A DNA stretch of 64,000 bases from assembly GCF_025717005.1 (NCBI RefSeq), contig NZ_JAOVZU010000004.1:62001-126000 (forward strand). Reading direction: 5' to 3'. Positions 42,747 to 59,124 of the stretch are shown in pieces. Made by a program: the position numbers and the translations under genes. Below the pieces are notes generated by a model. The model was not told where the DNA came from. It worked only from the letters and a program-made list of their open reading frames with translations, and made no database searches. This DNA is from Actinotalea endophytica (GTDB lineage Bacteria > Actinomycetota > Actinomycetes > Actinomycetales > Cellulomonadaceae). Numbering within the stretch: position 1 is the first letter of the stretch; each line of letters opens with the position of its first letter.

Positions 42747-43046
42747 TCAGCCCTCGCGGAACGAGACCCCGAAGCCCCCGCGAGGGTAGTGCCAGGACAG
42801 CGCGCCCTCGGGGGCGACCGCGAGGCACGTGCCGCACTCGAGGCACGCCGCGTACTCCACGCCGAGACCGCCGTCCGGCAGCTCGGTGTAGACGTGCGCC
42901 GGGCAGCACCGGGCGATCACGCCGGCACAGCCGGTCGACCGGACCACGTCCTGGTCGACGACGATGTGCGACTCGTCCTCGTCGAGCGCGTACCGGTTGT
43001 GCGCGAGCCGTTCGGGGACCGAACCGACCTGGAGCGCGCCGCTCAC
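42747..43046 (-). CDS. fixX: FixX-type ferredoxin-like protein, 99 aa
   Basis: Small Fe-S protein that pairs with FixC. A cysteine cluster at C-A-G-V-I-A-R-C-C-P-A and C-L-E-C-G-T-C-L matches the FixX pattern (CxxCP ... CLECGTC), predicting one [4Fe-4S] cluster. GTG at 43046 overlaps the fixC stop (GTGA). Last gene of the etfB-etfA-fixC-fixX series. In cai/fix and nitrogen-fixation systems FixX feeds or takes electrons via FixC; here the partner oxidoreductase is probably the CaiA-like dehydrogenase. Confidence 0.88.
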   Translation of the reverse strand: MSGALQVGSVPERLAHNRYALDEDESHIVVDQDVVRSTGCAGVIARCCPAHVYTELPDGGLGVEYAACLECGTCLAVAPEGALSWHYPRGGFGVSFREG

Positions 43047-44332
43047 AGCGCCCGCACCCCCGCCCACAGGTCGGACGCGAGGTCGAGCATCCCCACCGGG
43101 GAGGTGCGCAGCGCGTCCCACGCGACCGAGGCCAGGTGCTTGCGGGGCGTGGTGTCCAGGTCGAACGCTCTGACCATGACGTCCTCCAGGACGGGTCCGT
43201 AGTCGCGGTACATGCGGGGCCGCTCGAGGAACGCCGGCGCCTTCGCGTAGGTGGTGAGGTCCTTGCCGACGAAGCCGGCCATCAGCCGCTCCCGGTACCC
43301 GGCCAGCCCGGCCGCCGAGGTGTCGCCGGCGTCGAGCGCGTCGCCGATCCCACCGGCCGCGGCGATCGCAGAGCCGATCGCGAGGTCCATCCCCCGGACC
43401 GTCAGGCCCGAGTTGATGGTGAGCCCGGCCGCGTCGCCGACCACGACGAGCCCGTCCGTGGCGACCGTGCCGAGCATCCCGAGCCCGCCCTCGGCGACCA
43501 GGTGCGAGCCGTACTCGAGCACCTCGCCGCCGCGCAGGTAGCGCTGCACCGCGGGGTGCTCGCAGTACCGGTCGAACACGTCGGACGCGGATGCGCCCGA
43601 CGCAGCGAGGTCGTCCAGGCGCAGCACGACACCGACGGACAGCGACGTGGCGTTCGTGTACAGGAACCCGCCGCCGCCGATCCCACCGGTCGCCTCCCCG
43701 ACCATCGCCAGCGCCGCACCCTCGTCGCCGACCAGGCCGAACCGGTCGTCGATCGTCTCCCTGGGCAGCGACACGACGGCCTTGACGCCGACCGCGAGCT
43801 GGTTCTGCGCGGGCTTGGGACGCAGCCCGAGGCCGCGCGCCAGGAACGAGTTCACGCCGTCCGCGGCGACCACGACCCGCGCGCTGAGCTCGTCGTCGCC
43901 GGCGACCAGCCCGGTCACCGCACCGGACGGCGAGGTGAGCAACCGGTCCACGCGGACGCCGGGCATCAGGAACACGCCCGCCTCCTCGCACCGCTCGGCC
44001 AGCCAGGCGTCGAACCGTGCGCGGAGCACGGTGTACGCGTTGCCGTCGAGCCGGTCGGAGGTGAGGTCCACGCCGACGGCACCGGTCGAGGTGAGGAACG
44101 TGACCGCGTTACGCACCACGCGCCGCTCGACCGGCGCCGCGGCGGCGAAGTCCGGGAACACCTGCTCGAGCACCCGGCCGTACAGCACCCCACCGGACAG
44201 GTTCTTGGCACCGGGCGCCTCGCCACGCTCGACCAGGACCACCGAGTGCCCCTGCTGCGCGAGCAGGTACGCCGTCACGCAGCCGGCCGGGCCGGCGCCG
44301 ACGACGGCGACGTCGAAGTCGGGCTCGCTCAT
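43043..44332 (-). CDS. fixC: FixC-type electron-transfer-flavoprotein:quinone oxidoreductase-like flavoprotein, 429 aa
   Basis: FAD protein of the ETF-QO/FixC family. FAD loop GAGPAG (12-17), ERGEAPGAKNLSGGVLYG, the middle VVVAADGVNSFLARGLGL and the C-terminal DGLVVVGDAAGLTINSG are hallmarks. At 429 aa and without the C-terminal Fe-S domain of full ETF-QO, it is the FixC form that uses a separate FixX. ATG 44332 overlaps the etfA stop (ATGA). It is membrane-associated at most; no full membrane segments. Confidence 0.92.
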   Translation of the reverse strand: MSEPDFDVAVVGAGPAGCVTAYLLAQQGHSVVLVERGEAPGAKNLSGGVLYGRVLEQVFPDFAAAAPVERRVVRNAVTFLTSTGAVGVDLTSDRLDGNAYTVLRARFDAWLAERCEEAGVFLMPGVRVDRLLTSPSGAVTGLVAGDDELSARVVVAADGVNSFLARGLGLRPKPAQNQLAVGVKAVVSLPRETIDDRFGLVGDEGAALAMVGEATGGIGGGGFLYTNATSLSVGVVLRLDDLAASGASASDVFDRYCEHPAVQRYLRGGEVLEYGSHLVAEGGLGMLGTVATDGLVVVGDAAGLTINSGLTVRGMDLAIGSAIAAAGGIGDALDAGDTSAAGLAGYRERLMAGFVGKDLTTYAKAPAFLERPRMYRDYGPVLEDVMVRAFDLDTTPRKHLASVAWDALRTSPVGMLDLASDLWAGVRAL

Positions 44333-45234
44333 GACTGCAGCGCCGCCGCGAGCGCAGGGACGAAGGTGTACAGGTCGCCGACCACGGCGTAGTCGCACTC
44401 CTTCATGAAGGGCGCGTCGGCGTCGGTGTTGACCGCGACGATCGTGCCGGCGCCGCGGATCCCGACGGTGTGCTGCACCTGCCCGGAGATCCCCAGGGCG
44501 AGGTACACGTCCGGCGTCAGGGTGCGCCCGGAGACACCGACGTAGCGGTCCTTGGGCAGGAAGCCCGACCCCTCGGCGACCGGCCTCGAGCACGCGACGG
44601 CAGCACCCATCGCCTCGGCGAGCCGGTCCACGAGGGCCAGGTCCTCCTTGGCCTTCAGGCCCCGCCCGACCGCGACCACGCGCCGGGCGCCGGCCAGGTC
44701 GACCTGGGGCGCCGAGGACGGGCGGTTCTCCACGACCCTCACGGCGAGGGCCTCGGCGGTGACCTCCTCGACCGGCACGGCGGCACCCGGCTCGGGCACG
44801 CCGCCACCGTCGACGACCAGGCAGACCGGGCCGTCGCAGCGCTCGGTGCGGCGCGCGATCCCGCCGAGCACCTCGCGCTCGACCAGGACCGTGTCGCCGT
44901 CCGTCTCGACGCCGACGGCGCCGACCATCGCCGGCGCACGCAGGGTGGCGGCGACCGCGCCGACCAGCGCGCGGGCCGAAGGGCGGGCCGCGGCGAGCAC
45001 GACGCCGGGCGCGCCGTCCGCGACGACCGCCGCGACCGCGGTGGCGAAGGCCTCGACCGGGGCGTCCCCGGTCTCGCCGAGCCAGAGGCAGCGGTCGACC
45101 CCGGCCGTGGCCGTCGAGGCCGCGAGCTCATGCGGTCCGACGACCACGGCCGCGGTCGGGCGACCGAGGTTCCGTGCGGTGTCCAGCAGCCCGGCCACGC
45201 CGGGCTCGTCCACGATGATCCAGGTGGTGGTCAT
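44329..45234 (-). CDS. fixB: Electron transfer flavoprotein alpha subunit (FixB), 301 aa
   Basis: FAD-binding ETF subunit. The C-terminal FAD domain is clear: AVACSRPVAEGSGFLPKDRYVGVSG, LYLALGISGQVQH-like LALGISGQVQHTVG, and TIVAVNTDADAPFMKECDYAVVGD. ATG 45234 follows GGAGGAGAG. It follows etfB by 17 bases. Together they carry electrons between FixC/X and an acyl-CoA dehydrogenase. Whether the pair is of bifurcating type (extra FAD in FixA) cannot be settled by eye; the FixABCX set makes it likely. Confidence 0.92.
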   Translation of the reverse strand: MTTTWIIVDEPGVAGLLDTARNLGRPTAAVVVGPHELAASTATAGVDRCLWLGETGDAPVEAFATAVAAVVADGAPGVVLAAARPSARALVGAVAATLRAPAMVGAVGVETDGDTVLVEREVLGGIARRTERCDGPVCLVVDGGGVPEPGAAVPVEEVTAEALAVRVVENRPSSAPQVDLAGARRVVAVGRGLKAKEDLALVDRLAEAMGAAVACSRPVAEGSGFLPKDRYVGVSGRTLTPDVYLALGISGQVQHTVGIRGAGTIVAVNTDADAPFMKECDYAVVGDLYTFVPALAAALQS

Positions 45235-45251
45235 GTCTCTCCTCCGAGGGC

Positions 45252-46016
45252 TCAGAGCACGCCGTCGGCGCGCAGGGCGGCGACCAGCTCGCGTGCGGCG
45301 GCGTCAGGGTCGGTGGTGTCGATGCGGCGCCGGCCGCGCTCGGCCAGCGGTACGGGCGCGCGGCCGACCACCTCGGGCTGCGCCGGGAGCTCGCCGGCCA
45401 GCGGCAGCTCGACCACGGGCTTCTTGCCCGCGGCGAGGATGTCCTTCATGCCGGCGACCCGGGGCACCGCGGCGTCGGCCGCGACCGCGAGCACCGCAGG
45501 CCCGTCGACCCGGACGACCTGGCTCCCACTCCCCTGCGCGCGCTCGACGACCAGGGCGCCGCCGTCGGCGGTCACGTCGGCGACCTCGGCGAGGCTCGGC
45601 CAGCCGAGCAGACCGGCGAGCACCGACGGGACCAGGTGGGCGCCCTCGTCGACCGAGGAGTCACCGGCGAGCACGACGCGCACGTCCTCGACCTCACCGA
45701 CCGCCTGGGCGAGCGCGACCGCGGTGGGTGTCGCTCCCGCACCGGACAGCCGCTCGTCCGCGACGACCACGAGCCGGTCCAGCCCGCGCGACAGCGCGGC
45801 CTTGCGGGCCATCGGCGCGGCGATCTCGGGTCCGCCCACGCTCACGCCGACCAGCTCGCAGCCCCAGGCGTCGGCGAGGCGGCGGCCGACCTCGATCGCG
45901 ACCGGGTCGTACTCGCTGACCGCGGGCTTGGCCCGGCTCAGGTCGACCGTGCCGCCGGGCGCGACGGTGGCTTCCTGCGGGTTGGGCGCCCACTTGTGGG
46001 CGACGACGACGGTCAT
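45252..46016 (-). CDS. fixA: Electron transfer flavoprotein beta subunit (FixA), 254 aa
   Basis: Partner of FixB. Starts TVVVAHKWAPNPQEATV, and KPAVSEYDPVAIEVGRRLAD, GAGATPTAVALAQAVG and GWPSLAEVADVTADGGALVVER follow the ETF beta order. ATG 46016 follows AAGGAG. It lies 78 bases downstream of the MFS gene, in the same direction. In known FixAB pairs this subunit binds AMP or a bifurcating FAD. Confidence 0.92.
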   Translation of the reverse strand: MTVVVAHKWAPNPQEATVAPGGTVDLSRAKPAVSEYDPVAIEVGRRLADAWGCELVGVSVGGPEIAAPMARKAALSRGLDRLVVVADERLSGAGATPTAVALAQAVGEVEDVRVVLAGDSSVDEGAHLVPSVLAGLLGWPSLAEVADVTADGGALVVERAQGSGSQVVRVDGPAVLAVAADAAVPRVAGMKDILAAGKKPVVELPLAGELPAQPEVVGRAPVPLAERGRRRIDTTDPDAAARELVAALRADGVL

Positions 46017-46094
46017 CTCAGGCTCCTTCAGGGCGTACGGGGTCCTCCCGCGTGCGGACGCGGGCCGGACGGATGTGGACGGAACGGGACGGCG

Positions 46095-47363
46095 TCAGGT
46101 GCGACGGCGGGAGATCGCGTTGACCACGAGCATGAGCACCGCGATCAGGACGTACGAGCCGGCTGCCACGACCCAGGCGCCGTTGAACGACCCGGTGCGG
46201 TCGTAGATGCTCGCGTACAGGATCGGCGCCAGGGCGGAGAACGCCCCGAGCGAGAACGTGACCAGCGAGTAGATCCGGCTGTAGTCGGCGATGCCGAAGA
46301 AGTGCCGCACGGTGAGCGGCGGCACCACGACCAGGCCGGCGTAGGCGCCGCCGAAGATGAAGCATCCGGCCAGGAAGCCGGTGACCTGGTCACCGCTGGT
46401 GATCACGGTCGCGGCGCCGGCCACACCGAGCGCCGTGGAGACCATCGTGGTCGCGACGACGCCGACGCGGTCGTGCAACCAGCCCAGCCCGAGCTTGCCG
46501 ACGATGCCGCCGATCATGATCGCCGAGACACCGGCGGCACCCGTGGCGGAGGCGATGCCCACCGCGGACGCATGGCTCGGGGTCTGCTGGAGCATCGAGG
46601 CACCGAGGGCGAACAGCCCCGCGAGCACCATGACCATCCAGAACTGCGGCATGCGCACCGCCTGGCGCAGCGAGAACGTCGAGACCGGGGCCGTCGCGGA
46701 CCCCGCCCCCGAGGCCTCCGCCTCCTCCTCGGCCTCCGCACCGTACGGCTTCAGGCCGACCTGCTCCGGCGAGTACCGGATCAGCAGGAGCACCGCGGGC
46801 ACCGACATCAGGAAGCCGATGCCGCCCATGATCGCCCGGGTCTCGCGCCAGCCGATCGAGTCGATCAGTGCGCCGCCGATCGGGTTGACGAACGCCGCGA
46901 CGAGGCTCGCGAACGCGGCGGTGAGGCCGATCGCGAGGCCGTTGCGCCGCCGGAACCAGTTGTTGACCAGCAGCGGGATCGGCACGTAGAGCAGGAAGCC
47001 GAAGCTGATGCCGAGCGCGACGGCCGCGATGTACCAGTGGGTGAGCGAGGTGAACAGCGCGCTCGCCGCGTACGTCCCGGTGCCGAGCGTGAGCGCCACC
47101 GCGAGCACGACCTGCACCTTGAACCGCGGCAGCACCCAGCCGGCGATCGGCAGCGTCGCGGTCATCACCAGCGCGACCACCGTCATGTAGCCGTTCAGGG
47201 CGGCCAGGCTGACGCCGAGCTCCTCGCTGACCGGCTTGAGGTAGATGCCGGCCGAGTTGCCGATCACTCCCACGATGCCGCCGAACATCAGGCAGCAAGC
47301 GACGAGCACCCACCAGGCGCGGTGGACGCGGGTGGTGGTGGGACGGACGTCGACGGTGGACAC
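46095..47363 (-). CDS. MFS transporter, oxalate/formate-antiporter (OFA) type, 422 aa
   Basis: Twelve membrane segments. The opening RAWWVLVACCLMFGGIVGVIGNSAGIYLKPVSEELG is typical for OFA-type carboxylate carriers, as are FGFLLYVPIPLLVNNWFRRRNGLAIG and TVRHFFGIADYSRIYSLVTF. GTG at 47363 follows GAGGAG. First gene of the fix unit, just after the 27-bp box and a strong leader hairpin. It may import the substrate acid or exchange it for the reduced product, in the role played by CaiT in the carnitine system. Confidence 0.85.
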   Translation of the reverse strand: MSTVDVRPTTTRVHRAWWVLVACCLMFGGIVGVIGNSAGIYLKPVSEELGVSLAALNGYMTVVALVMTATLPIAGWVLPRFKVQVVLAVALTLGTGTYAASALFTSLTHWYIAAVALGISFGFLLYVPIPLLVNNWFRRRNGLAIGLTAAFASLVAAFVNPIGGALIDSIGWRETRAIMGGIGFLMSVPAVLLLIRYSPEQVGLKPYGAEAEEEAEASGAGSATAPVSTFSLRQAVRMPQFWMVMVLAGLFALGASMLQQTPSHASAVGIASATGAAGVSAIMIGGIVGKLGLGWLHDRVGVVATTMVSTALGVAGAATVITSGDQVTGFLAGCFIFGGAYAGLVVVPPLTVRHFFGIADYSRIYSLVTFSLGAFSALAPILYASIYDRTGSFNGAWVVAAGSYVLIAVLMLVVNAISRRRT

Positions 47364-47422
47364 CGGCGCTCCTCTCCTCGAGTCCGGCGCGCACGGCGCG
47401 CTCGGGGGCAGATCCTGGGCCT

Positions 47423-47454: not shown

Positions 47455-47476
47455 GAGAAAAACATATCCCGGCTTC

Positions 47477-47503
47477 AAAACCGGTTTAGCGGGACCTCTG
47501 TCC
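47477..47503 (-). promoter_or_regulatory. 27-bp operator-like box before the fix unit
   Basis: On the plus strand the box reads AAAACCGGTTTAG, C, GGGACCT, CT, GTCC; it matches the box at 59252-59278 in 24 of 27 positions. It contains the perfect palindrome AAACCGGTTT and a second inverted repeat GGAC-N4-GTCC. Its near edge is 114 bases before the MFS start. CG-centred palindromes are typical of LacI-family sites. Confidence 0.75.
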
Positions 47504-47537
47504 TGACATTTCTTTCACGATCACGGAGTGGTGCATT

Positions 47538-48320
47538 TCAGGCGACCGGGGTGCGCGCGGGCGGGGTCGCCGCCTCGCCCGCGAACGCCTGGACGACGTC
47601 GGCGTACCGCCGCGCCTCGTCACCCGTGACCGCCAGGTCGGTGTCCTGCCAGCGCCGGCGCCGCACGCCGACCAGCGCCCAGTCCCGCGCGGTCCCGACG
47701 ATCCGGTCCACCGCGTCCTCCGGACCACGCACCCACGGCGCACCGGACGGCAGGGTGAGCTCGAGCCGCACCGGGGTGTCCGGCAGCTCGAGGCCGTTGA
47801 TCCGGTAGGCGTGCGGCCTGGCCTGCCAGGTCAGGAAGAGCGTGTGGGCGATCCGGTCGGTGACCAGCGGCTCCAGGCCCAGCGCGTCGTACAGGTCCAC
47901 CGAGTGAGCCCACAGCTCCATGAGCCGCGCGGTGGCGAGCGAACGCACCGACATCGGCGGCGCACCGGCCGCCCACGGGACCCGGGCCTTCGGGTCGTTG
48001 TCCAGGAAGGCCACCGCGAGCCGGCAGCGCACCTCGCGCCACCAGTCCAGCAGCTGCGTCCCGGTGCGATCGAGGTAGGCCGTCGCGCTGTACGACTCGT
48101 CGAGCCCGAAGTGCGCATCAGCAAGCTCGTTGACCGATTCACCGTTGCCCTTCATCAGCTCGATCGCGGCCCAGTCATAGGCGGCGATGTGCGCGAGCTC
48201 CTCCTTGAACGTCCAGTCGCAGGTCGCGGCCGGCGCGCTCCACTGGTCCTCGGCGAGCTCGCCGACCAGCGTGTCCACCTGGGCCTGCTCTGCGATGAGG
48301 TCGGTGACGACCCGTTCCAT
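47538..48320 (-). CDS. DinB-fold, mycothiol-dependent maleylpyruvate-isomerase-like protein, 260 aa
   Basis: N-terminal metal-binding four-helix domain (DTLVGELAEDQWSAPAATCDWTFKEELAHIAAYDWAAIELM, with the metal His in LAHIAAYD and the later H in ELWAHSVDLYDAL), then a smaller C-terminal domain. This is the TIGR03084-like branch of the maleylpyruvate isomerase/DinB group found in actinobacteria. Members use or are thought to use mycothiol. ATG 48320 follows AGGAGC. Last gene of the cai-like unit; a role in thiol addition to an unsaturated intermediate is possible but speculative. Confidence 0.8.
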   Translation of the reverse strand: MERVVTDLIAEQAQVDTLVGELAEDQWSAPAATCDWTFKEELAHIAAYDWAAIELMKGNGESVNELADAHFGLDESYSATAYLDRTGTQLLDWWREVRCRLAVAFLDNDPKARVPWAAGAPPMSVRSLATARLMELWAHSVDLYDALGLEPLVTDRIAHTLFLTWQARPHAYRINGLELPDTPVRLELTLPSGAPWVRGPEDAVDRIVGTARDWALVGVRRRRWQDTDLAVTGDEARRYADVVQAFAGEAATPPARTPVA

Positions 48321-48373: not shown

Positions 48374-49528
48374 TCAGACCGCGTAGTCCTTGAGGATCGT
48401 GCGGCCGGCGATGTGGATCATGACCTCGTCGGTGCCGCCACCGATCCGCTGCACGCGGGCGTCCAGCCAGAGGCGGGAGACCCGCGCGTCGGTGGTGTAG
48501 CCGATCCCGCCGAGGATCTGCATCGCGTCGTCGATGACCTCGTTGCAGGACTGCGCGCAGTAGAGCTTGGCCAGCGCCGAGTCGACCTGGACGCTCTCGC
48601 CGTTGTCGATCTTCCACGCGGTCCGCATCACCAGGTTCCGCATGTTCTCGATCTTGAGCTTCATCATCGTGATCTTCTCCTGGATCAGCTGGAAGCTCCC
48701 GATCGTGCGGCCGAACTGGACCCGCTGGGTCGCGTACCGGGCCGCGTCGCCGAACGCGCACTCGGCCATGCCGAGCATCGAGGCCGCCATCAGCAGCCGC
48801 TCGACCTCGAAGTTCGCCATCAGCTGCATGAAGCCCGCGCCCTCGACGCCGACCAGGTCCTTCTCCTCGATCTCGACGTTCTCGAGGTAGACCTCGCAGG
48901 TGTCCATCATGTGCCAGCCGATCTTGGACAGCGGCTCGACCGTGACGCCCGGGCTGTCCATCGGGACCCACCACATGGTGAAGGCGGCCTTCTTGCCGGC
49001 GTCGCCCGCCGCCTCGGCGTCACGGGCCAGGCAGAGCATGTACTTCGCGCGCAGCGCGTTGCTCATGAACGTCTTGTGGCCGTTGATGTAGACCTTGCCG
49101 TCCCGCCGGGTGAACGTCGTCGCGATCGCCGAGGAGTCCGACCCCGCCTGCGGCTCGGTGAAGCCGAGCACGAACCCGGGCTTGCCGGCCATCACCTCGG
49201 CCATGCACTGCTCGCGCTGCTCGTCGTTGCCGAACTCGACCATGTCGGCGATCGACAGCGCCTGGCCGAACACGAAGTGCGGGCCGCCCTGCTTGCAGAT
49301 CTCCTCGGCGACCAGCATCAGCGTCACGGTGTCGACCGGTGTGCCGCCGTACTCCTCGGGGACCCCGAGCATGCCGAACCCGCTCTCGATGAGAGCCTCG
49401 ACGAGCTCCTCGGGGTAGCGGTGCTGCTCGTTGCACTCCTTCATGTACTCCTCGGAGCACGAGCGCTCGAGCAGCTCACGCAGGCTCTCGAGCAGCAGCT
49501 CCTGCTCGTCGGTGAGGCTGAAGTCCAT
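48374..49528 (-). CDS. Acyl-CoA dehydrogenase, CaiA-like (enoyl-CoA reductase candidate), 384 aa
   Basis: FAD acyl-CoA dehydrogenase that by my recollection of CaiA (crotonobetainyl-CoA reductase) aligns almost end to end with it: MDFSLTDEQEL, TEPQAGSD, TFTRRDGKVYINGHK, CAFGDAARYATQRVQFG, IGSFQLIQEK, AWKIDNG and RIGGGTDEVM. The C-terminal catalytic Glu of MCAD (in YEGT) is Gly364, but Glu243 in FEVERLLM lies at the alternative helix position used by isovaleryl-CoA dehydrogenase. ATG 49528 overlaps the ligase stop by one base. With FixABCX it would reduce an enoyl-CoA. Confidence 0.88.
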   Translation of the reverse strand: MDFSLTDEQELLLESLRELLERSCSEEYMKECNEQHRYPEELVEALIESGFGMLGVPEEYGGTPVDTVTLMLVAEEICKQGGPHFVFGQALSIADMVEFGNDEQREQCMAEVMAGKPGFVLGFTEPQAGSDSSAIATTFTRRDGKVYINGHKTFMSNALRAKYMLCLARDAEAAGDAGKKAAFTMWWVPMDSPGVTVEPLSKIGWHMMDTCEVYLENVEIEEKDLVGVEGAGFMQLMANFEVERLLMAASMLGMAECAFGDAARYATQRVQFGRTIGSFQLIQEKITMMKLKIENMRNLVMRTAWKIDNGESVQVDSALAKLYCAQSCNEVIDDAMQILGGIGYTTDARVSRLWLDARVQRIGGGTDEVMIHIAGRTILKDYAV

Positions 49529-52221
49529 CAGGTCCTGCCCTTCGTGTCGGGGTCGGCGGCGGCGCCGTCGACGTAGTGGTGCAGCCCGTCCGTCTGCACG
49601 CGCCGGAGCGCGCCGCGGTGGACGAGGTGGTCGAGGTAGGCGAGCGCGTGGCCCGCGGTGAGCCAGCGCAACCCGGGTGACCGGTCCGCCCACACGCCCG
49701 CCTGGAACGGCAGCCCCGCGGCCACCTGGGCCCCGGTGCCGGCCAAGCCGTGGACGACGAGGTCCCGGGTCTGCTCGAGCCGCAGCTCGTGGTGCTCGAT
49801 CAGCGCCGCGGCCCGCGCCGTGGCGTCGCCGCCCGGGCCGTGCCCGGGCAGGACCGTGCGCGCGCCGAGCGCGGCGACCCGGCGCAGCGAGGCGAGGTGG
49901 TCGCCGAGCGCGCCGTCGCTCCCGGTCAGCATCACCGGCGGCGTGATGTGGAACAGCAGGTGGTCGCCGGTCAGCAGGACACCCGCCTGCGGCTGGTGCA
50001 GGCAGATGTGGCCGGGCGTGTGACCGGGCACGGCGACGACCACCCAGCGAACGCCGCCCAGGTCGATCTCGTCGCCGTCCGAGAGCTCGAGCACGGGGTG
50101 CTCGAGCACCGTCTCCGGCGTGGCCCGGCGGACCGTCGCGGCGAACTCGTCGGCGTCCTGCGGCCCGAAGCCCTCGGCCCGGTAGCGCCGCCGCACCGCA
50201 CGCTGCACCTCGCCCCTGGCGAGCTCGTGCAGGTACGCCGCGCCGGCCGCGCCGAGCAGCACCCGGCCACCGGTCCCGACGAGGTGGGCGAGACCGGCGT
50301 GATCGGCGTGCTCGTGGGTGAGCAGCACGTCGATCCGGTCGGCGTCCACACCGAGGTGCTCGAGCGCGCGCAGCAGCACGCCGTGTCCGACGGGAGTGTC
50401 CGAGCCCGGGTCGACGAGCAGGCTGCGCTCGGTGCCGCGCAGCAGGTAGCAGCTCGTCGCCGGCTCCAGGCCGGGCGGGTTCGGCACCTCGATCCGGACG
50501 ACCTCCGGCGCCGCGACCACCCGGGTGATCAGCGGCTCGACGTCGGGGTGGTCGACGAGCGAGGCGCGCACCGCGGCGGCGGCCCGGCACCGGCGCACCA
50601 CGGCGGCCTTGTCGACCTTCCCGGCGTCGTCGCGGCCCAGCGCGTCGAGCAGCTCCATCGACCTGGGCTTCTTGAAGCTCGCGAGCCGTTCCTTGCAGAA
50701 CTCCTGCAGCTCGTCGAGCGTGAGCGACGCCCCGGCCCGCAGCTCGACGGCGACGGCCACCGCCTCGCCGAAGCAGCTGTCCGGCACGCCGTAGACCAGG
50801 CAGTCGGCGACCGCGGGGTGCTCGCGCACGGCGGCCTCGACCTCGCCGACGAAGACGTTCTCGCCCCCGGACTTGATCATGTCGCGCTTGCGGGACCTCA
50901 GGTACACGTACCCCTCGGCGTCCTTGACCATCATGTCGCCGGTGCGCAGCCAGCGGTCCGGCGTCAGGGCCTGCTCGGTGAGGTCCGGCCGGCCGTGGTA
51001 GCCACGCATCGTCGCCAACGAGCGCACCGCGCCCTCGCCGACCACGCCGTCCGGCACCTCACGGCCGTCCTCGTCGACCACGCGGAGCTCGAGGAACGGC
51101 ATCGGCCGGCCGATGCTCGCGGCCCGCGGCACGTCTCGGCTGGCCATCTCCGCGGTGAGCACGAGCGTCGTGCCGAGCCCGCTCTCGGTCTGGCCCCAGC
51201 CGTAGTTGAGCCGGGCGTTCGGGAACCACCGGTGGACGTCTCGGATCATCTGCCGGCTGGTGCCCCCGGCGGACGACTGGACGAGCCGCACCGAGCTGAG
51301 GTCACGGGTCGCGACGTCGGGGTGCGCCATCAGCCGCGTGTAGGTGGTCGGCGGCAGCAGGATCATGTAGCTGACCCGGTGCCGCTCGATCTCGGCGAGG
51401 ATCGCGGCCGCGTCGAAGGACGTGCAGACCACGACGGTCGCGCCGGCCGCGAACGCCATCGTGAACCACGAGTGCCCGCCGTGGTGGTCCATCGGGCACT
51501 GGATGAGCACCACCTTGCTCGCGTCGTCCGCGAGCCCGTTCGAGGCGAGGATGCCCTCGACCTCGACCAGGTCGGCAGCGTGGGTGCGCTCGACGCCCTT
51601 GGGCCGGCCGGTGCTCCCACCGGTGTGCTGGATCCTCGCGACGGCGGCCGCGTCGTGCACGACCGGCGGCACCGGGCCCACCGCAGCGCGGTCGGTGGGA
51701 CACGTGCCACCCGTCACCTCGTCGGCGCACACCACGGTGGTGCCGTCGAGGTCGGCGTCGTCGACCACCGCGGCACAGCACGCGGCGTGCACCAGCACCC
51801 GCGCACCGCTCTCCCGCACCACGTCGGTGACCTCGCGCGCGATCGACCGCACGTTGATCGGGACGGCCGCAGCGCCGAGCCACTGGATCGCGTAGTACAC
51901 CTCGATCAGCGGCGCCCCGTTCGGCAGCAGGTAGGCGACCCGGTCCCCCGCCCGCACGCCGAGGCCGTGCAACGTCGCGGCGAGGTGCTCGATCTCGGCA
52001 CGCACCGTGGCGTAGTCCAGCTCGACGCCCCCGTGCACGATCGCGAGGCGCTCGGGGTGGGCGGCGGCCGCTCGCAGGAACGGCTCGACCGTCGACCCGA
52101 GCAGGTGCATGGTCGGCTGCGTGCCGGCGGCCGGCCCCGTCGCGCTCCACGCCCCGGCACCGTCCGGCGCGACGACGCCTCCGCCCCCCAGCTGCGGAGC
52201 CGTTGTCGTGGACGGGGTCAT
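49528..52221 (-). CDS. CaiC-like acyl-CoA ligase fused to a metallo-beta-lactamase-fold hydrolase, 897 aa
   Basis: Residues about 40-550 are an AMP-forming CoA ligase: phosphate loop TGGSTGRPKG (200-209), GWGQTESG (341-348), hinge LRTGDMMVKDAEGYVYLRSR, and the catalytic Lys535 in DDAGKVDK. Residues about 575-870 are a metallo-beta-lactamase-fold domain with the metal motif H-E-H-A-D-H (636-641) and later metal residues in PGHTPGH, LTGDHLL and LPGHGPG. Such a fusion joins CoA activation with a possible thioester or lactone hydrolase. The frame is unbroken through the junction. ATG 52221 overlaps the crotonase stop (ATGA). Substrate unknown. Confidence 0.88.
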   Translation of the reverse strand: MTPSTTTAPQLGGGGVVAPDGAGAWSATGPAAGTQPTMHLLGSTVEPFLRAAAAHPERLAIVHGGVELDYATVRAEIEHLAATLHGLGVRAGDRVAYLLPNGAPLIEVYYAIQWLGAAAVPINVRSIAREVTDVVRESGARVLVHAACCAAVVDDADLDGTTVVCADEVTGGTCPTDRAAVGPVPPVVHDAAAVARIQHTGGSTGRPKGVERTHAADLVEVEGILASNGLADDASKVVLIQCPMDHHGGHSWFTMAFAAGATVVVCTSFDAAAILAEIERHRVSYMILLPPTTYTRLMAHPDVATRDLSSVRLVQSSAGGTSRQMIRDVHRWFPNARLNYGWGQTESGLGTTLVLTAEMASRDVPRAASIGRPMPFLELRVVDEDGREVPDGVVGEGAVRSLATMRGYHGRPDLTEQALTPDRWLRTGDMMVKDAEGYVYLRSRKRDMIKSGGENVFVGEVEAAVREHPAVADCLVYGVPDSCFGEAVAVAVELRAGASLTLDELQEFCKERLASFKKPRSMELLDALGRDDAGKVDKAAVVRRCRAAAAVRASLVDHPDVEPLITRVVAAPEVVRIEVPNPPGLEPATSCYLLRGTERSLLVDPGSDTPVGHGVLLRALEHLGVDADRIDVLLTHEHADHAGLAHLVGTGGRVLLGAAGAAYLHELARGEVQRAVRRRYRAEGFGPQDADEFAATVRRATPETVLEHPVLELSDGDEIDLGGVRWVVVAVPGHTPGHICLHQPQAGVLLTGDHLLFHITPPVMLTGSDGALGDHLASLRRVAALGARTVLPGHGPGGDATARAAALIEHHELRLEQTRDLVVHGLAGTGAQVAAGLPFQAGVWADRSPGLRWLTAGHALAYLDHLVHRGALRRVQTDGLHHYVDGAAADPDTKGRT

Positions 52222-52988
52222 CGTGACTGACGCCCCGCCCGGAACCGTGCCGCGAGCTCCTTGTGCTCGGCGGTCTGCGCGCAGAACGGCGAGGCGGTGG
52301 ACTCGGCCTCGAGGACCGCGTCCAGGCCGACGTCGGCCGACCCGTTCATGATCCCCTTGGTGACCTGGATGCCGAGCGCGGGCATCGCCGCGACGGCGAG
52401 CGCGAGCTCGAGCGTGCCCTCCCACAGCAGCTCGGGCGCGAGCACCCGGTTGGCGACACCCATCCGGGCGAGGTCCTCGCCGTACAGGGTCCGGTTGGTG
52501 AAGAGGATCTCCTTGGCCGCCTTCTCGCCGACCAGCTCGGGCAGCAGCTTCATGATGCCCATCTCGGGGACGATGCCCAGCGCGCAGAACGCCGGGATCG
52601 CGCGGGCGCGGTCCGACACGCACACCAGGTCGCAGGCGAGCACCAGGCTGAACGCGCCACCGACCGCGTAGCCGTCGACCATCGCGATCACCGGGGTGCC
52701 GATCCGGCGGACCGTGCGGATCGCCCGCAGGTAGCGGCGCAGCTGCGAGCGCCCCTGCTCGACCGTCGGGCCGTCCGGTCCACCCTGCGAGAGGTCGCCG
52801 CCGCTGGAGAACACGTCACCGGCGCCGCGCAGCACGACGACCCGCACCTCGGGATCGGCGTCGGCCTCCTCGAGCAGGTCGCACAACCGGTCCATCATCG
52901 GCGCGCTGATCGCGTTCTTCTTCTCCGGCTGGTCGAGGACCACGACGGCCACGCCGTCCTCGCGCCGGGTCAACGTCACGTGCTGCAC
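52218..52988 (-). CDS. Crotonase-family protein (CaiD position) with altered active site, 256 aa
   Basis: Enoyl-CoA hydratase/isomerase fold. The oxyanion-hole segments are present (VFSSGGDLSQGG, VDGYAVGGAFS). Aligned to rat hydratase and CaiD, the two catalytic glutamates are replaced: Ser114 (in AFSLVL) and Phe134 (in IPAFCALG). Glu142 in GIVPEMG sits where delta3-delta2 enoyl-CoA isomerases keep their base. It may isomerise rather than hydrate. GTG 52988 follows GGAGGAGAG; 13 bases after the upstream flavoprotein stop. The alignment is by eye. Confidence 0.85.
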   Translation of the reverse strand: MQHVTLTRREDGVAVVVLDQPEKKNAISAPMMDRLCDLLEEADADPEVRVVVLRGAGDVFSSGGDLSQGGPDGPTVEQGRSQLRRYLRAIRTVRRIGTPVIAMVDGYAVGGAFSLVLACDLVCVSDRARAIPAFCALGIVPEMGIMKLLPELVGEKAAKEILFTNRTLYGEDLARMGVANRVLAPELLWEGTLELALAVAAMPALGIQVTKGIMNGSADVGLDAVLEAESTASPFCAQTAEHKELAARFRAGRQSR

Positions 52989-53001
52989 AGCTCTCCTCCG
53001 C

Positions 53002-55089
53002 TCAGATCGCGACCGCGGCGCGGTAGCCGGCCTTGGTCGCGTCGGCGATCCGGCCCGGGTCGGCGCAGTCGCCGGCCTCGTGGACCTCGACCCCGGCGGC
53101 GCTCAGCGCCTCGTACAGGCCACGGTTCGCCTCGAACCCCAGCGTGACGGCAACGGTGCGGGCAGATACCCGGACCTCCGTCTCACCCTCGGGCCCGTGC
53201 TGCACCCCGACGAGCCCGTCCGGCGTGATCCTCGTCACGGTGGTCGACTGGTAGGTGGTCACGTTCGCCGCTTCCTTGAAGTCCTTGCGCACGTGGAATC
53301 GTTCGCTCGCGCTCACGTCGTAGGCGATCCGCTTGCCTTCTTCGACGATCGTGGTGGTCCGCCCGGAGTGCATCGCGAGCTCGCCGAGCTCGCAGCCGGG
53401 CAGCCCGCCGCCGATGATCGCGAGCGACCGGGACAGCGGCCACGGGCTGAGCCTCGTCACTCGCCGCGCGAAGCCCGGCGTGTAGTAGAAGCGCAGGAAC
53501 GTCGCCCCGGCGGTCCACAGCAGCCGGTCGAGCAGGCGCTGCTTGCGCGGCGGGGTCGAGTTGAGCATCTGCAGGAAGTCGTGCGACGTGACCACGTTCG
53601 GGCCGTCGGCGCCCGGCACGTCGATCCCCTTGGGCTCGCCGCCGATCGCCACGACCACGGCGTCCGGCTTCACCCGGCGCACCAGCTCGGGCGTCACCGG
53701 GGTGCGCAGCACGACCTTGACCTCGGGGTGCTTGGCGAGCTTGGTCCTGTAGTACCGGAGCAGCCGCTCGTGCATCGGGCTGAAGATCGCGCTCATCTTG
53801 GTCGACCCGCCGACCCGCGGGCCGGCCTCGTAGACGACCACGTCGTGCCCGCGCTCGGCGGCCGTGAACGCGGCCGAGAGCCCGGCCGGGCCGGAGCCCG
53901 CGACCAGGACCTTCTTGCGACTGGTCGTGCGCGGTACCTCGAGCTCGTCCAGCTCGGCGCCGAGGCGCGGGTTCACCGCGCAGCGCTCCAGAGGGAGCCC
54001 CTTGGAGACCACGTCGTCGATGCACCGGTTGCAGCAGATGCACATCGCGATGTCCTCGGGCCGGTCCTCCATGACCTTGCGCGGGAAGGCCGGGTCCGCG
54101 ATCGAGTAGCGCAGGCCGCCGATGACGTCGGCCTTGCCCTCGCGCAGCACGCTCTCCATGACCTCCGGGTCGGTCTCCCGGTAGGCCGTGACGACCGGCT
54201 TGGTGGCGACGGTCTTGATCTTCTCGGAGATCCAGGACCAGTGGCCGTCCGCGATCTGCTTGGTGGTCAGCGGGATGCTCGTCTCGTGCCAGCCGACCGC
54301 GAGGTTGTGCAGGTCGGCACCGGCCGCCTCGAGGTAGGGCACCACCTCGAGCGCCTGCTCGATGGTGTGGCCCTCGCCGATCGGGCTCTTCACGTAGTCG
54401 ACCGGGGACCAGCGCACCAGGATCGGGTAGTCCGGTCCGACCGCGGCGCGGATCTCCTCGATCACCTCGACGGTGAGCCGGACCCGGTTCTCCAGGCTGC
54501 CCCCGTACCGGTCGGTGCGGTTGTTGGTGGCCGGCGAGAGGAAGCGGTTGAGGATGCCTCCGACACCCGCCATCACCTCCACGCCGTCCCAGCCGGCGTC
54601 CTTGAGGATCACGGCGCAGTCCACGAACTGGCGCTTGAAGATCTCGATGTGCTCGAGCGTCATCGCCTTGAACGGGCCCATCATCGGCAGGATCGAGATG
54701 TCCGACGGACCCCAGTCGGTCTCCTCCTCCTGCGCGGTGGACTTCCACTCGTGGACGAAGTACGGCTGACCGACGAGCAGGCCGCCGTGGTCGTGCACGA
54801 CCCGCGCCATCGACCCGAGGTGGTCCAGGCACGACTCGTCGTACGCGCCGGGCAGGCGGTGGTGACCGCGGAAGCCCTCGGGCCGCTCGTGCGGGCTGAC
54901 CGTCTGGCAGATCAGGGCGGTCTGCCCGGCCGCGCGCTGCTCGAGGTAGTTGAGGAACCGCGTCGTCGGGCGGGAGTTCTCGTCGACGTAGCCAACGCCG
55001 GGCGACATCGACGTCGTCATCATCCGGTTCTTCAGGACGACGCCGCCGACCTGGATCGGGGACGACAGGATCGGGAACTGGCTGCCCAT
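53002..55089 (-). CDS. FadH/BaiCD-type NADH:flavin oxidoreductase with Fe-S cluster, 695 aa
   Basis: N-terminal FMN TIM barrel (about 1-340), cysteine cluster C350-C353-C356 with C370 for a [4Fe-4S], then FAD/NAD domains (GSGPAGLSAAF near 397). This is the 2,4-dienoyl-CoA reductase, 2-enoate reductase, BaiCD/BaiH group. Compared with E. coli FadH, the active-site His is kept (His268 in GWHETSIP), but the catalytic Tyr is Gly178 and its Glu neighbour Val176. A different substrate or proton donor is likely. ATG 55089 is preferred over a GTG four codons earlier. First gene after the hairpin at 55231. Confidence 0.87.
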   Translation of the reverse strand: MGSQFPILSSPIQVGGVVLKNRMMTTSMSPGVGYVDENSRPTTRFLNYLEQRAAGQTALICQTVSPHERPEGFRGHHRLPGAYDESCLDHLGSMARVVHDHGGLLVGQPYFVHEWKSTAQEEETDWGPSDISILPMMGPFKAMTLEHIEIFKRQFVDCAVILKDAGWDGVEVMAGVGGILNRFLSPATNNRTDRYGGSLENRVRLTVEVIEEIRAAVGPDYPILVRWSPVDYVKSPIGEGHTIEQALEVVPYLEAAGADLHNLAVGWHETSIPLTTKQIADGHWSWISEKIKTVATKPVVTAYRETDPEVMESVLREGKADVIGGLRYSIADPAFPRKVMEDRPEDIAMCICCNRCIDDVVSKGLPLERCAVNPRLGAELDELEVPRTTSRKKVLVAGSGPAGLSAAFTAAERGHDVVVYEAGPRVGGSTKMSAIFSPMHERLLRYYRTKLAKHPEVKVVLRTPVTPELVRRVKPDAVVVAIGGEPKGIDVPGADGPNVVTSHDFLQMLNSTPPRKQRLLDRLLWTAGATFLRFYYTPGFARRVTRLSPWPLSRSLAIIGGGLPGCELGELAMHSGRTTTIVEEGKRIAYDVSASERFHVRKDFKEAANVTTYQSTTVTRITPDGLVGVQHGPEGETEVRVSARTVAVTLGFEANRGLYEALSAAGVEVHEAGDCADPGRIADATKAGYRAAVAI

Positions 55090-55230
55090 GGGTCGAGGCA
55101 CCTCTCGTCGGACCCGCCGGTCGGCGCGTGCGCGGACATGACGGGGTAGGGATTCGGTAGGTCGGGGGAATCGCGGTCCCGGTGACCGGCTGTCCCGAGG
55201 AACGGCCGGTCAGCGGAGCAGCGGTTCGGG

Positions 55231-55265
55231 GCCGGTCGGCCCGCCCGAGCGACGGGCCGACCGGC
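55231..55265 (-). terminator. Perfect 13-bp stem after the MFS gene, inside the cai-like run
   Basis: GCCGGTCGGCCCG (55231-55243) and CGGGCCGACCGGC (55253-55265) pair exactly around a nine-base loop. It is 54 bases past the MFS stop and 142 bases before the flavoprotein start. It may split the run into two units or attenuate. The 230-base gap 55090-55319 holds no gene and no third copy of the 27-bp box. Confidence 0.75.
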
Positions 55266-55319
55266 TGGGGCGCTCGTGGGCGCCCGAACGGGGACCGGGA
55301 AGGGGTCCCCTCGTCGGCC

Positions 55320-56606
55320 TCAGCCGACGAGCTCCTCCTGCTTGGCCGTCGAGGTCTTCCAGACCTTGGGGCCGGCAGAGGCGATGTAGGGCACCGCGAG
55401 CGCGATGACCAGGTAGAACACGATGACCAGGATGAACGCGGGGCTGAGGGATCCGGTGATGTCGTAGATCTGCGCGTAGACCAGGGCCGCGAGGCCGGAG
55501 AACACCAGGATCGACGTGGAGACCCAGGAGTAGACCTCGGAGTAGTGCATCGTGCCGAACGCCTGGCGGGCGAGCATCGGGGTGACGATCGTCAGCGCCG
55601 CGAACGCGATGCCGAACAGGCCCATGCCGAGGTAGAACATCCCGGTGTTCGAGCCCGCCTGGAACGCGAGGGTCAGACCCGCGGCGCCCGCGACGCCGGC
55701 GATGATGCCGGTGGTCTTGGTGCCCAGCAGGTCGCTCAGCCAGCCGAGCAGGAACTTGCCGACCATCGAGCCGATCATGATGATCGACACGGCCATGGCA
55801 CCGGCCGTCGCGCCGAGGTCGCCGTTGGCGGCGTACGACGGGATCTGCTGGAAGAACGCCGCGCCCATGACGAACAGGCCGCCGACGAGCATGAGCAGGT
55901 AGAACGCGGGCGACTTCTTCGCCTGGCCGAGGGTGGCACCCTCCTCGACGACCGTCGCCGTCGCTCCGTCAGTGGTCTTGGCGACCGTCTCGGCGCCCCA
56001 GGGCAGCACGCCCATCGAGGCGGGCGACTTCCGGACGAAGATGACCGTGAGCAGCGTCGCGAAGATCGTCATGACGACACCCATCCACAGACGCGCGTAC
56101 TGCCAGCCGTGGTTGGCGATCAGGCTCTGGCCGATCGGGCTCGCGAGCGCCGCGGTACCCGACAGGACGCCACCTGCGATGCCCATCGCGAGGCCCGCGC
56201 CCTTGGCGAACCAGGCGCTGATCAGCGTCGGCGCCGCGAGGAACATGAAGAACGCGCAGCTGATGCCGTAGATCACGCCGTAGGCCGCCCACTGCCACGG
56301 CTGGTCCGCGTAGGCGGTCCAGATCGTCGCGAGGCCGTAGACCAGCACCGACGCGGTGAGCAGCCAGCGCGGGTTGTACTTGGCCATCAGCTTGCCCGCG
56401 AGCGGCGTGAACAGCGCGCCGACCCACGGCTGGAGCGTCATGTACAGGGTGGCCTCGGTCCGGGTCCAGCCGAACTCGTCCATGACCGGCTTGATGAAGA
56501 TGCCCGAGGTGTTGCCGATGATGCCGACCGGCAGGGCGTAGAACCCGATGCAGGCCACGAGGATGAGCCAGGCGTAGCTCGACCCCTTCGATTGCTTGGT
56601 TGTCAC
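55320..56606 (-). CDS. MFS transporter, oxalate/formate-antiporter (OFA) type, 428 aa
   Basis: Twelve membrane segments; second OFA-like carrier of the region. SSYAWLILVACIGFYALPVGIIGNTSGIFIKPVMDEFG parallels the start of the carrier at 46095, as do FMFLAAPTLISAWFAKGAGLAMG and FGTMHYSEVYSWVSTSI. GTG 56606 follows AAGGGG. It is 50 bases downstream of the first CaiB-like gene. Two related but diverged carriers suggest separate import and export tasks or two substrates. Confidence 0.87.
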   Translation of the reverse strand: MTTKQSKGSSYAWLILVACIGFYALPVGIIGNTSGIFIKPVMDEFGWTRTEATLYMTLQPWVGALFTPLAGKLMAKYNPRWLLTASVLVYGLATIWTAYADQPWQWAAYGVIYGISCAFFMFLAAPTLISAWFAKGAGLAMGIAGGVLSGTAALASPIGQSLIANHGWQYARLWMGVVMTIFATLLTVIFVRKSPASMGVLPWGAETVAKTTDGATATVVEEGATLGQAKKSPAFYLLMLVGGLFVMGAAFFQQIPSYAANGDLGATAGAMAVSIIMIGSMVGKFLLGWLSDLLGTKTTGIIAGVAGAAGLTLAFQAGSNTGMFYLGMGLFGIAFAALTIVTPMLARQAFGTMHYSEVYSWVSTSILVFSGLAALVYAQIYDITGSLSPAFILVIVFYLVIALAVPYIASAGPKVWKTSTAKQEELVG

Positions 56607-56656
56607 GGTGGTTGACCCCTTGATCTCGCAGTGAAATGGCGAAACGTGGTGCTCCG

Positions 56657-57865
56657 TCAGGAGCCGAGAACTCCCTTGGCAGTCAGATCAGCGACCTCCT
56701 CGTCGGTGAAGCCGTGCTCAGCAAGGACGGACGTGGTGTCGAAGCCGTAGGGCGCGCCGCCCCGGACCGTCTTGCTGGGGCGCTTGGCGAACCGGGGCAC
56801 GGGAGTGGCCCCCGTGATCTCCTCGCCGGACTGCAGGTCGGTCCAGGTCTCGAAGACGCCTCTCGCCCGGTAGTGCGAGTTCTCCTGCATCCGCGCGTAG
56901 TCCATGATCGGGCTGATCGCGACGCCGAGCGGAGCGAGGATCTCCTCGACCTCGGCGACCGTGCGCTCCTCGCAGAAGGCGTCGAGCTTCTCGGTGAACT
57001 TGCGGGCCCGCTCGGGCTTGTCCCGGGTGATCGACTGGATCGGCCCGTCGAAGTCGGGGTCGTCACCGAGGCCGAAGAGCTCGACCATGGCACGCACGGC
57101 GCCGGCCCCGCCGACGGCGATGAAGACCCATCCGTCCTTGCACGGCTGCGTGCCCTTGCACGCGCCGACGGTGTCCAGGTTGCCCATCCGCGGCGCCTGC
57201 TTGCCCTTGTTGAGGCCGTCGGTCAGGTACGAGGCCTGGACGCGCACGAGCGACTCGAACTGGGCCAGGTCGATGCTCTCGCCCTCGCCGGTCTCGCGGG
57301 CCCGGATGACGCCGGCCAGGGCCGCCCAGGCACCGAACAGCCCGGTGAGGAAGTCGCCCATGTAGGGCTTGGTGACGTAGGGCGGGAGTGGGTCGGGGAA
57401 GCCGTTGATCGCCATGTAGCCGCTGAACGCCTGGCCGATCGAGTCGAACGACGCACGGCGCAGGTAGGACGGGTCGCCGGTCTGCCCGAAGCCGGAGACG
57501 TGCACGATCACGAGTGCGGGGTTGACCTCCCACAGCACCTCGTCGGTCAGGCCCCACTTCGCCCACGTCCCGCCGCGGCCGGACTCGACGAGCAGGTCGG
57601 CGTCCTTGATCAGCCGGAACAGGACCTCCTTGCCCTCGGGTGTGGGGATGTTCAGCGCCATGGAGCGCTGGTTGCGCCGCTCCATGGACCAGGACTGCGG
57701 CCACAGGCGGTACATGTCCTGCACCTTGGGGCTCTCGAGCTGGATCACGTCCGCGCCCTGCTCGGCGAAGAGCTCGCACAGGAACGGGCCGGCGATCACC
57801 GACGCGGCGTTGATCACCTTGAGGTTCTGCAGGTTCCCGAACCCGTTGCCGTCGACGTCCTTCAT
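56657..57865 (-). CDS. CaiB/family III CoA-transferase, 402 aa
   Basis: Family III CoA-transferase (formyl-CoA transferase/CaiB group). VINAASVIAGPFLCELFAEQGADVIQLE is the CoA-binding start, VIVHVSGFGQTGDPSY is conserved, and the nucleophile is Asp171 in KPYMGDFLTG. C-terminal RGVFETWTDLQSGEEITGATPVPRF fits CaiB. ATG 57865 follows GAGGAGG. It is 20 bases after the second CaiB-like gene. It would move CoA from the reduced product to the incoming acid, saving ATP after initial activation by the ligase. Confidence 0.9.
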   Translation of the reverse strand: MKDVDGNGFGNLQNLKVINAASVIAGPFLCELFAEQGADVIQLESPKVQDMYRLWPQSWSMERRNQRSMALNIPTPEGKEVLFRLIKDADLLVESGRGGTWAKWGLTDEVLWEVNPALVIVHVSGFGQTGDPSYLRRASFDSIGQAFSGYMAINGFPDPLPPYVTKPYMGDFLTGLFGAWAALAGVIRARETGEGESIDLAQFESLVRVQASYLTDGLNKGKQAPRMGNLDTVGACKGTQPCKDGWVFIAVGGAGAVRAMVELFGLGDDPDFDGPIQSITRDKPERARKFTEKLDAFCEERTVAEVEEILAPLGVAISPIMDYARMQENSHYRARGVFETWTDLQSGEEITGATPVPRFAKRPSKTVRGGAPYGFDTTSVLAEHGFTDEEVADLTAKGVLGS

Positions 57866-57885
57866 CTGTTCCTCCTCGGACCGGC

Positions 57886-59124
57886 TCAGGCGCCGGTGGT
57901 CTCTTCGTAGTCGCGCCGGGTCAGGTGACCGGCCGCGTACATGCGGTCCCGGACGTCGTCGGCGACGCCCAGCTCGGCGAGCACGTCGTCGTTGTCCATG
58001 CCCACGGTGGGCGCACCGCGCCACACCTGACCAGGGCGCCCGGCGACCTCGGGCACGACCTTGACCCCGGGGATCGGGGTCGCGCCGTCCGCGGCGGTCC
58101 ACTCGGTGAGCACGCCGCGCGCCACGTAGTGCGGGTGGGTGCGGGCGGCCTCGTAGTCCATCAGTCGCGAGCACGGCACCCCGGCGGAGGCGAGCTCCTC
58201 CTCGACCTGGGCGGCGGTGCGCGTCGCGATCCACTCGGCGAACCGGGTCTCGAGGACCTCGGCGGCGGGGGTGTCGACGGGCACGAACGTCGCGCCCTCG
58301 GGGAACAGCTCGCTGCCGTACTCCAGGCCGAGGACCGCGAGGGTGCGGCGCACCACACCGGCGCCGAGCACGAGGAGGTAGACCTCCTCACCGTCCGCGC
58401 ACGCATAGGTGCCGTACACGGCGCAGATCCGGCTGTGGCTGCCCTCGCGCACGTAGTCCAACCCGTAGCGCAGGTAGTCGGTCGGGTAGTTCGCCTGCAT
58501 CCGCATCATCAGCTCGAACTGCGCGATGTCGATGCTCTCGCCACGCCCGGTCGTGCCCCGCCGGACGAGCGCCGCGTTGGCCATGCCGAAGGCGTACATC
58601 GCGGCGGCGTAGTCGGCCGGGAACGGCATCGCCGGCATCGAGGGCAGGCCGGGCACCCCGTTCATCCGCATCGCGCAGCCGAAGGCCTGGGCGATCGGGT
58701 CGTAGCTCGCGCGGGAGACGTAGGCAGGGTCGCCGGTCTGCCCGAAGCCCGAGATGTGGGCGATGACGAGCCGAGGGTTGCGCTCCCACAGCACCTCGTC
58801 GGAGAGCCCGAGTGAACGGAACCGCCCGCCCACCGAGGCCTCGACGAGAACGTCGGTCGTCTCCATCAGACGCAGGAACACCTCACGACCGTCCGGCTCG
58901 AGGTAGTTCATGGACAGGCTGCGCATGTTGCGCCGGTCCTGCTGCCAGGCGCCCGAGCGTCGTGCGACGCGGGAGGAGTCGATCGCCTTGGGGTTCTCGA
59001 TCCAGATGACGTCCGCCCCGTGCTCGGCGTACAGCTGACCGGCGAACGGTGCGGCGACCGACTGGCCGATCATCACCACCCGCAGGTCGGGCAGGAGGCC
59101 GAAGTCGGGACGGGTCGTGGTCAA
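57886..59124 (-). CDS. CaiB/family III CoA-transferase, closest to CaiB, 412 aa
   Basis: Second CoA-transferase, and the one closer to E. coli CaiB in my recollection: LPDLRVVMIG, EVFLRLMETTDVLVEAS, RLVIAHISGFGQTGDP, YVARGVLTEW and PGQVWRGAPTVGMD. Nucleophile Asp171 in PFPADYAAAM. The start is uncertain: the TTG at 59124 gives the normal length and has AGAGGTGG eight bases before it; an ATG at 59184 is in frame but has no ribosome site. First gene of the cai-like unit, downstream of the 27-bp box. Confidence 0.88.
   Translation of the reverse strand: MTTTRPDFGLLPDLRVVMIGQSVAAPFAGQLYAEHGADVIWIENPKAIDSSRVARRSGAWQQDRRNMRSLSMNYLEPDGREVFLRLMETTDVLVEASVGGRFRSLGLSDEVLWERNPRLVIAHISGFGQTGDPAYVSRASYDPIAQAFGCAMRMNGVPGLPSMPAMPFPADYAAAMYAFGMANAALVRRGTTGRGESIDIAQFELMMRMQANYPTDYLRYGLDYVREGSHSRICAVYGTYACADGEEVYLLVLGAGVVRRTLAVLGLEYGSELFPEGATFVPVDTPAAEVLETRFAEWIATRTAAQVEEELASAGVPCSRLMDYEAARTHPHYVARGVLTEWTAADGATPIPGVKVVPEVAGRPGQVWRGAPTVGMDNDDVLAELGVADDVRDRMYAAGHLTRRDYEETTGA

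Follow-up and report, generated by a model that had tools for sequence, protein, structure and literature searches.

The question raised by the window, meaning the whole 64,000-nucleotide stretch of Actinotalea endophytica DNA analyzed (contig NZ_JAOVZU010000004.1, positions 62,001 to 126,000; G000:C15:62001-126000 in our numbering, in a genome totaling 4.25 Mb), is what pathway is encoded by a row of 13 genes at 42747-59184, all on the minus strand and reaching from two CaiB-type coenzyme A (CoA) transferases through FixX. A first-pass annotation had read ten of these genes as one set resembling the carnitine pathway caiTABCDE-fixABCX. Profile searches find all of the gene families it named, on one strand, so the same-strand cluster stands; the single ten-gene set gives way to 13 genes in two likely transcription units. 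Our answer, which we regard as on balance probable from comparison of sequences, is that the row would encode a redox module working on CoA thioesters, dedicated to one unsaturated carboxylic acid and linked to electron-transfer flavoprotein (ETF), with a core shared with Eggerthellaceae.

The gene row is more than chance, since eight genomes of another family repeat the order of its core. Genome searches found the core, at 43-67% identity, in nine genomes of one distant family, which we take to be Eggerthellaceae, eight of them having the same order and the ninth (G856) being split over two contigs on which the flavoprotein and crotonase are not seen. The G863 contig starts near the module, and its caiB2 and neighboring carrier are not seen there. 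Identity to the window across the copies is 62-67% for the dehydrogenase (all nine), 57-61% for the flavoprotein, 56-58% for the TIGR03084 protein, 51-58% for the crotonase, 43-49% for the ligase, 58-61% for transferase no. 2 against caiB2, and 50-55% for carrier 1 against the nearest carrier in each copy. For transferase no. 1, the genomes searched offer a close counterpart (62-65%) in G750, G856 and G871 only, adjoining no. 2 just as it does in the window; identity in the remaining copies does not exceed 48%. In the class of these hosts, an Eggerthellaceae ligase query matches 10 of 246 genomes at E ≤ 1e-120, and 9 of these have the module. The tenth, G860, which we leave out of the count of copies, has a looser cluster showing no match to the old yellow enzyme (OYE) family across the stretch fetched; that cluster (L070-L071) holds FixCX, a major facilitator superfamily (MFS) protein, a ligase lacking the lactamase domain, two CaiB-type transferases, a dehydrogenase and FixAB.

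What marks the Eggerthellaceae copies as a regulated unit is sigma-54. In all nine module-bearing genomes the TIGR03084 gene is followed, about 0.3-1.1 kb downstream, by an rpoN gene that scores above cut-off; this is the only rpoN found in six of them, and a sigma-54 activator gene comes after it in the three genomes examined for one (G543, G871, G750). Scanning with the sigma-54 consensus gives 41 sites with at least 12 of 13 matches in 11 stretches, versus 1.84 expected from roughly dinucleotide-preserving shuffles. For the per-gene counts we used eight genomes, leaving out G856, and sites with at least 11 matches. These lie 36-225 bases upstream of caiB2 (7/7), caiB1 (7/7), the nearer carrier (7/8), the other carrier (6/7), the dehydrogenase (7/8) and FixA (5/5), and upstream of the flavoprotein in one of eight; none precedes the crotonase, ligase or TIGR03084 gene (0/8 each), FixC (0/2) or the second caiB1 type (0/2). 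Four of the eight genomes are from one genus, so these counts are not independent. No site with at least 12 matches is found in window stretch 42001-62000, in G860 or in G856 stretch L069, the other G856 piece (L076) having three, and there is no rpoN match in the window genome, in G654 and G659 of its genus, or in G860. The site before FixA in every Eggerthellaceae copy with FixAB nearby supports the earlier suggestion of a dedicated, CoA-based pathway directed at a double bond and tied to ETF and FixCX.

Is this, then, a variant of the carnitine/crotonobetaine (cai) pathway? FixABCX is present, and among solved structures both class III CoA-transferases, no. 1 (57886..59184, PF02515 at 283 bits, start codon picked by eye in a frame extending to 59289) and no. 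2 (56657..57865, PF02515 at 295 bits), are closest to Escherichia coli CaiB, at 299 and 252 bits with the next family at 113 and 134. However, against the NCBIfam L-carnitine CoA-transferase model, with a cut-off of 413, they score 367 and 348, and in a tree with long-branch warnings, support of 100/99 separates them from a clade formed by E. coli CaiB and the CaiBs of three cai clusters. The dehydrogenase (48374..49528), which had been called CaiA type, is an acyl-CoA dehydrogenase, but of YdiO type: it passes NCBIfam PRK12341 (YdiO) with 655 bits against a cut-off of 537 and misses CaiA with 424.7 against 540, and it has 55% identity to E. coli YdiO versus 44% to CaiA. Likewise, the supposed CaiC-type protein (49528..52221) is an AMP-forming acyl-CoA ligase but scores 198.6 against the CaiC cut-off of 651 and carries a fused C-terminal metallo-beta-lactamase-fold domain. 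No CaiT betaine carrier, CaiE or CaiF is found among the Pfam matches of the 13 genes. As had been noticed from the letters, OFA/monocarboxylate-type MFS carriers (PF07690) stand in the CaiT place; there are two, one at 55320..56606 and one directly before FixABCX at 46095..47363, with 132.7 and 129.5 of 320 bits to an SfMCT-like model. FixABCX is the sole cai feature that passed among those tested. A second cai-type set about 210 kb away in the same genome has its own FixABCX-type genes and scores 695 bits for CaiA and 641.5 for CaiB, both above cut-off, with a CaiC-like ligase at 597.9 of 651, below it. Since this separate set passes the CaiA and CaiB cut-offs and the module does not, we conclude from the model scores that the module at 42747-59184 is not the carnitine pathway, in line with the earlier doubt about that substrate, and a variant of it is extremely unlikely. 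Within or close to the second set, at L036:4392-13896 (G000:C15, about 329-339 kb), are a LuxR-type regulator, a MaoC-type match and MFS carriers; no betaine carrier is seen there among the open reading frames scanned.

The active sites of two enzymes narrow the reading further; they were aligned in nine copies, those of the window and eight Eggerthellaceae, without G856. The crotonase (52218..52988, PF00378) had been placed in the CaiD role, which does not hold up: its two hydratase glutamates, located by a numbering that we assume, are replaced (by A/S and F) in 9/9 copies, and CaiD keeps both. Its top solved match is a Thermus-type enoyl-CoA hydratase/isomerase (3hrx and 6sl9-6slb), which we take to be PaaG, and it has Glu at the position of an Asp in that enzyme, presumably Asp136, giving it an isomerase-like active site. 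The Fe-S flavoprotein (53002..55089, PF00724 OYE domain plus PF07992 FAD/NAD domain) is of the FadH/2-naphthoyl-CoA reductase (NCR) type, with nearest solved structures NCR 6qkg (295 bits) and FadH 1ps9 (245 bits). FadH Glu164, which we take to be a proton donor, and the catalytic Tyr166 are swapped for small residues in 9/9, the window having VGG where EGY is expected, and His252 is retained. Among other OYE loci fetched (L007-L019, L072, L073), Tyr166 is kept in 15/15 and Glu164 also in 14/15. Tyr-less OYEs can act as isomerases, as does ergot EasA. PMC6502838 terms this Tyr invariant in OYEs. These replacements mean that neither the hydratase role nor the FadH or BaiCD label can be transferred. 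A second, more distant BaiCD/mycofactocin-like OYE in the same genome (L036:589-2544) has Trp at the Tyr166 place.

Two alternatives are weighed on these residues. One would have the row assist the beta-oxidation of polyunsaturated fatty acids, since the dehydrogenase, FadH-like protein and isomerase-like crotonase match the FadE/FadH/isomerase combination. It is quite improbable, given the loss of both FadH residues, a pair of CaiB-type transferases and OFA carriers ill-suited to fatty-acid use, and the dedicated regulation in Eggerthellaceae. Nor would this be a complete beta-oxidation route, because the set has no crotonase with hydratase residues and no Pfam match to thiolase or hydroxyacyl-CoA dehydrogenase among its 13 genes, the rest of the genome not having been searched for such enzymes. 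A simple story of FadH-like dienoyl reduction, in which dienoyl-CoA goes to 3-enoyl, then to the isomerase and the dehydrogenase, was attractive because the crotonase is isomerase-like, but both FadH proton donors are gone, and we keep it as no more than one option. The other alternative is a bai-like pathway for bile acids or steroid acids, an affinity also raised in the first-pass annotation. The OYE, CoA-transferase, ligase and MFS proteins recall bai pieces and the carriers weakly match a bile-salt MFS model (93 and 89 of 400 bits), yet the flavoprotein reaches 304 of 825 bits on the BaiCD model, no hydroxysteroid dehydrogenase or BaiE-type match occurs among the 13 genes, and the Tyr absent here is, according to PMC11722256, conserved across the BaiCD and steroid reductase clade, which leaves this option very unlikely.

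The electron partners complete the gene list. The ETF-beta-type FixA (45252..46016, PF01012), the ETF-alpha-type FixB (44329..45234, PF00766 and PF01012) and the ETF:quinone oxidoreductase-like FixC (43043..44332) have as top-scoring models PRK12342 (YdiQ), PRK11916 (YdiR) and the YdiS-type PRK10015, though they miss those cut-offs (143 of 338, 197 of 528 and 399 of 466 bits). All three are closer to E. coli YdiQ, YdiR and YdiS, FixC being 44% identical to YdiS and 41% to E. coli FixC; the ferredoxin-like FixX (42747..43046) is closer to E. coli FixX (41%) than to YdiT (33%). YdiO is labeled an enoyl-CoA reductase, and the YdiQRST role is given as unclear, in PMC10318755. FixAB lies downstream of the module in 5/9 Eggerthellaceae copies. 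The window FixC shares a clade with those of genus and order mates (support 100/100), nearest the FixC of cai-type clusters in G654 and G678 (87/98, a fork that is not firm). In G850 and G863, FixCX is embedded in the gene row itself, and their FixC is of a different lineage from that of the window; hence module and FixCX were paired on at least two occasions. Genus mates G668, G667, G654 and G659 and order mate G686 have ydi-like sets (L037, L038, L039, L041, L042) with a YdiF-type transferase, a dehydrogenase, FixABCX and, in most, a ligase.

Two proteins have unusual additions or affiliations. The ligase is a single frame with PF00501 at amino acids 50-409, PF13193 at 460-535 and PF00753 at 588-794. 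The metal-binding residues of the lactamase-fold domain, presumably metal ligands, are invariant across seven copies, and its structure model (mean predicted local distance difference test, pLDDT, of 82) is similar to TTHA1429, LACTB2 and PqsE, so that by fold the domain may be a thioesterase. The gene product at 47538..48320 is a TIGR03084 MDMPI/DinB-fold putative metal enzyme (262.5 bits against a cut-off of 248) with H44, E135 and H139 invariant across eight copies; its model is weaker (mean pLDDT 67), and the MDMPI_C domain reaches 15.4 of 29.5 bits. MshA, the one mycothiol gene searched for, is above cut-off in 0/10 Eggerthellaceae (nine having the module; 7/10 give weak sub-cut-off matches) and in 3/3 genomes of the window's genus. 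Mycothiol dependence is thus unlikely for the Eggerthellaceae copies, and is possible for the window's protein because its own genome is one of those with MshA.

From the observed gene content, synteny, active-site changes and Eggerthellaceae sigma-54-type sites, we infer reactions, direction and substrate type as follows. The OFA-type carriers would bring the acid in, take the product out, or both. The ligase would form the first CoA ester, after which the CaiB-type transferases would move CoA from product to fresh substrate. The crotonase would shift the C=C bond without adding water, and the YdiO-type dehydrogenase would reduce the 2-enoyl-CoA or, in reverse, form it, with FixAB carrying its electrons and FixCX exchanging them with the quinone pool. 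The Tyr-less flavoprotein could supply a second hydride step, perhaps redox isomerization or handling of a ring or diene, and the lactamase-fold domain may hydrolyze the product thioester. The reductive direction is more likely in Eggerthellaceae because these hosts are anaerobes.

The alternative of oxidative use, in which a cyclic acid would be desaturated or aromatized as a carbon source while FixABCX relayed electrons of the dehydrogenase to quinone, draws on the same parts. A YdiO-type dehydrogenase and an OYE lacking its proton donor fit dehydrogenation or isomerization, FixCX could feed quinone, and the nearest solved OYE, NCR, works on a ring-CoA ester according to PMC6502838. But the set has no match for ring cleavage, on top of the missing thiolase, hydroxyacyl-CoA dehydrogenase and hydratase residues, and the other hosts are, as said, anaerobes; we consider this option unlikely.

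Several points weigh against the favored dedicated module. Intergenic spacing across the 13 genes runs from -4 to 230 bases and is mostly -4 to 53; the three wider gaps precede the flavoprotein (230), the second carrier (174) and FixA (78). In the 174-base one, which follows the TIGR03084 gene, a consensus scan places a terminator-like site (47469..47484, minus strand), one of four in the scanned stretch versus 2.6 expected by chance. It likely splits the window genes into two transcription units and parts FixABCX from the core, so that joint transcription here is putative. Within the stretches fetched, four of the nine Eggerthellaceae copies (G782, G750, G871, G856) show no FixAB near the module. 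The ligases of G871 and G856 lack the lactamase domain, which is therefore not essential. With the OYE proton donor lost, the flavoprotein is hard to see as a simple enoyl or dienoyl reductase. The oxidative direction is possible in the window organism, and the dehydrogenase tree gives the window copy no supported placement.

How did the core come to the window genome? It probably came from an Eggerthellaceae-like source, leaving the sigma-54 control behind, and now stands beside a FixABCX whose FixC belongs to the lineage of the host genus and order. Transfer is likely because the window ligase query at 1e-100 matches one of 150 same-family genomes, the window's own, and finds no module ligase in the 149 others; as the dehydrogenase tree is silent, the case rests on distribution and synteny. 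At 1e-90 the query matches 3 of 396 genomes of the phylum, its own and two Eggerthellaceae. The flavoprotein query finds, besides itself, relatives of 32-38% identity only in the order (297 genomes) and class (296), and 488 plasmid records that are every one below 60%. A scan of named genomes yielded no more than four matches, all distant. A bolder extension, possible though we hold it tentatively, is that Eggerthellaceae would run an undescribed CoA-linked pathway that serves as an anaerobic electron sink, and would retain a sigma-54 factor essentially for its regulation alone, with a Tyr-less OYE doing new chemistry; on passing to an actinomycete, the pathway would have shed sigma-54 control and taken up that lineage's FixABCX as its new partner. 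If true, there would be a bounded, regulated gene set for tracing a new metabolism in Eggerthella-type bacteria, a redox module that moved between distant Actinomycetota while swapping electron-delivery partners, and a natural OYE family without the residue that PMC6502838 terms invariant. A literature search over titles and the starts of abstracts turned up no description of this gene set among the entries listed, which is weak evidence of novelty.

Directly past FixX are a LacI-type regulator (plus strand, window 41544-42734) and a fructose-6-phosphate aldolase-type gene (40855-41688), probably unrelated sugar genes, and beyond the cluster a chemoreceptor with a single Cache domain (39104-40699).

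Set beside known systems, the module shares with E. coli ydiFO-ydiQRST-fadK the above-cut-off YdiO-type dehydrogenase, FixABCX and an acyl-CoA ligase. It differs in that class III, CaiB-type transferases replace the YdiF type, in a FixX closer to E. coli FixX than to YdiT, and in additionally having the OYE, crotonase, lactamase-fold fusion, TIGR03084 protein and OFA carriers. With the bai operon, the gene types are loosely alike, the BaiCD cut-off is far off, and no other bai-defining gene appears among the family matches. The domain plan, Fe-S cysteines and His252 of the flavoprotein are those of the FadH/NCR OYE family, from which it differs in having small residues for Glu164 and Tyr166 and CX2CX2C in place of FadH's CX2CX3C. 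With E. coli caiTABCDE-fixABCX, the module has in common the overall plan of ligase, class III transferase, dehydrogenase, crotonase and FixABCX, whereas the other cai features tested are missed and its own genome holds a separate cai-type set.

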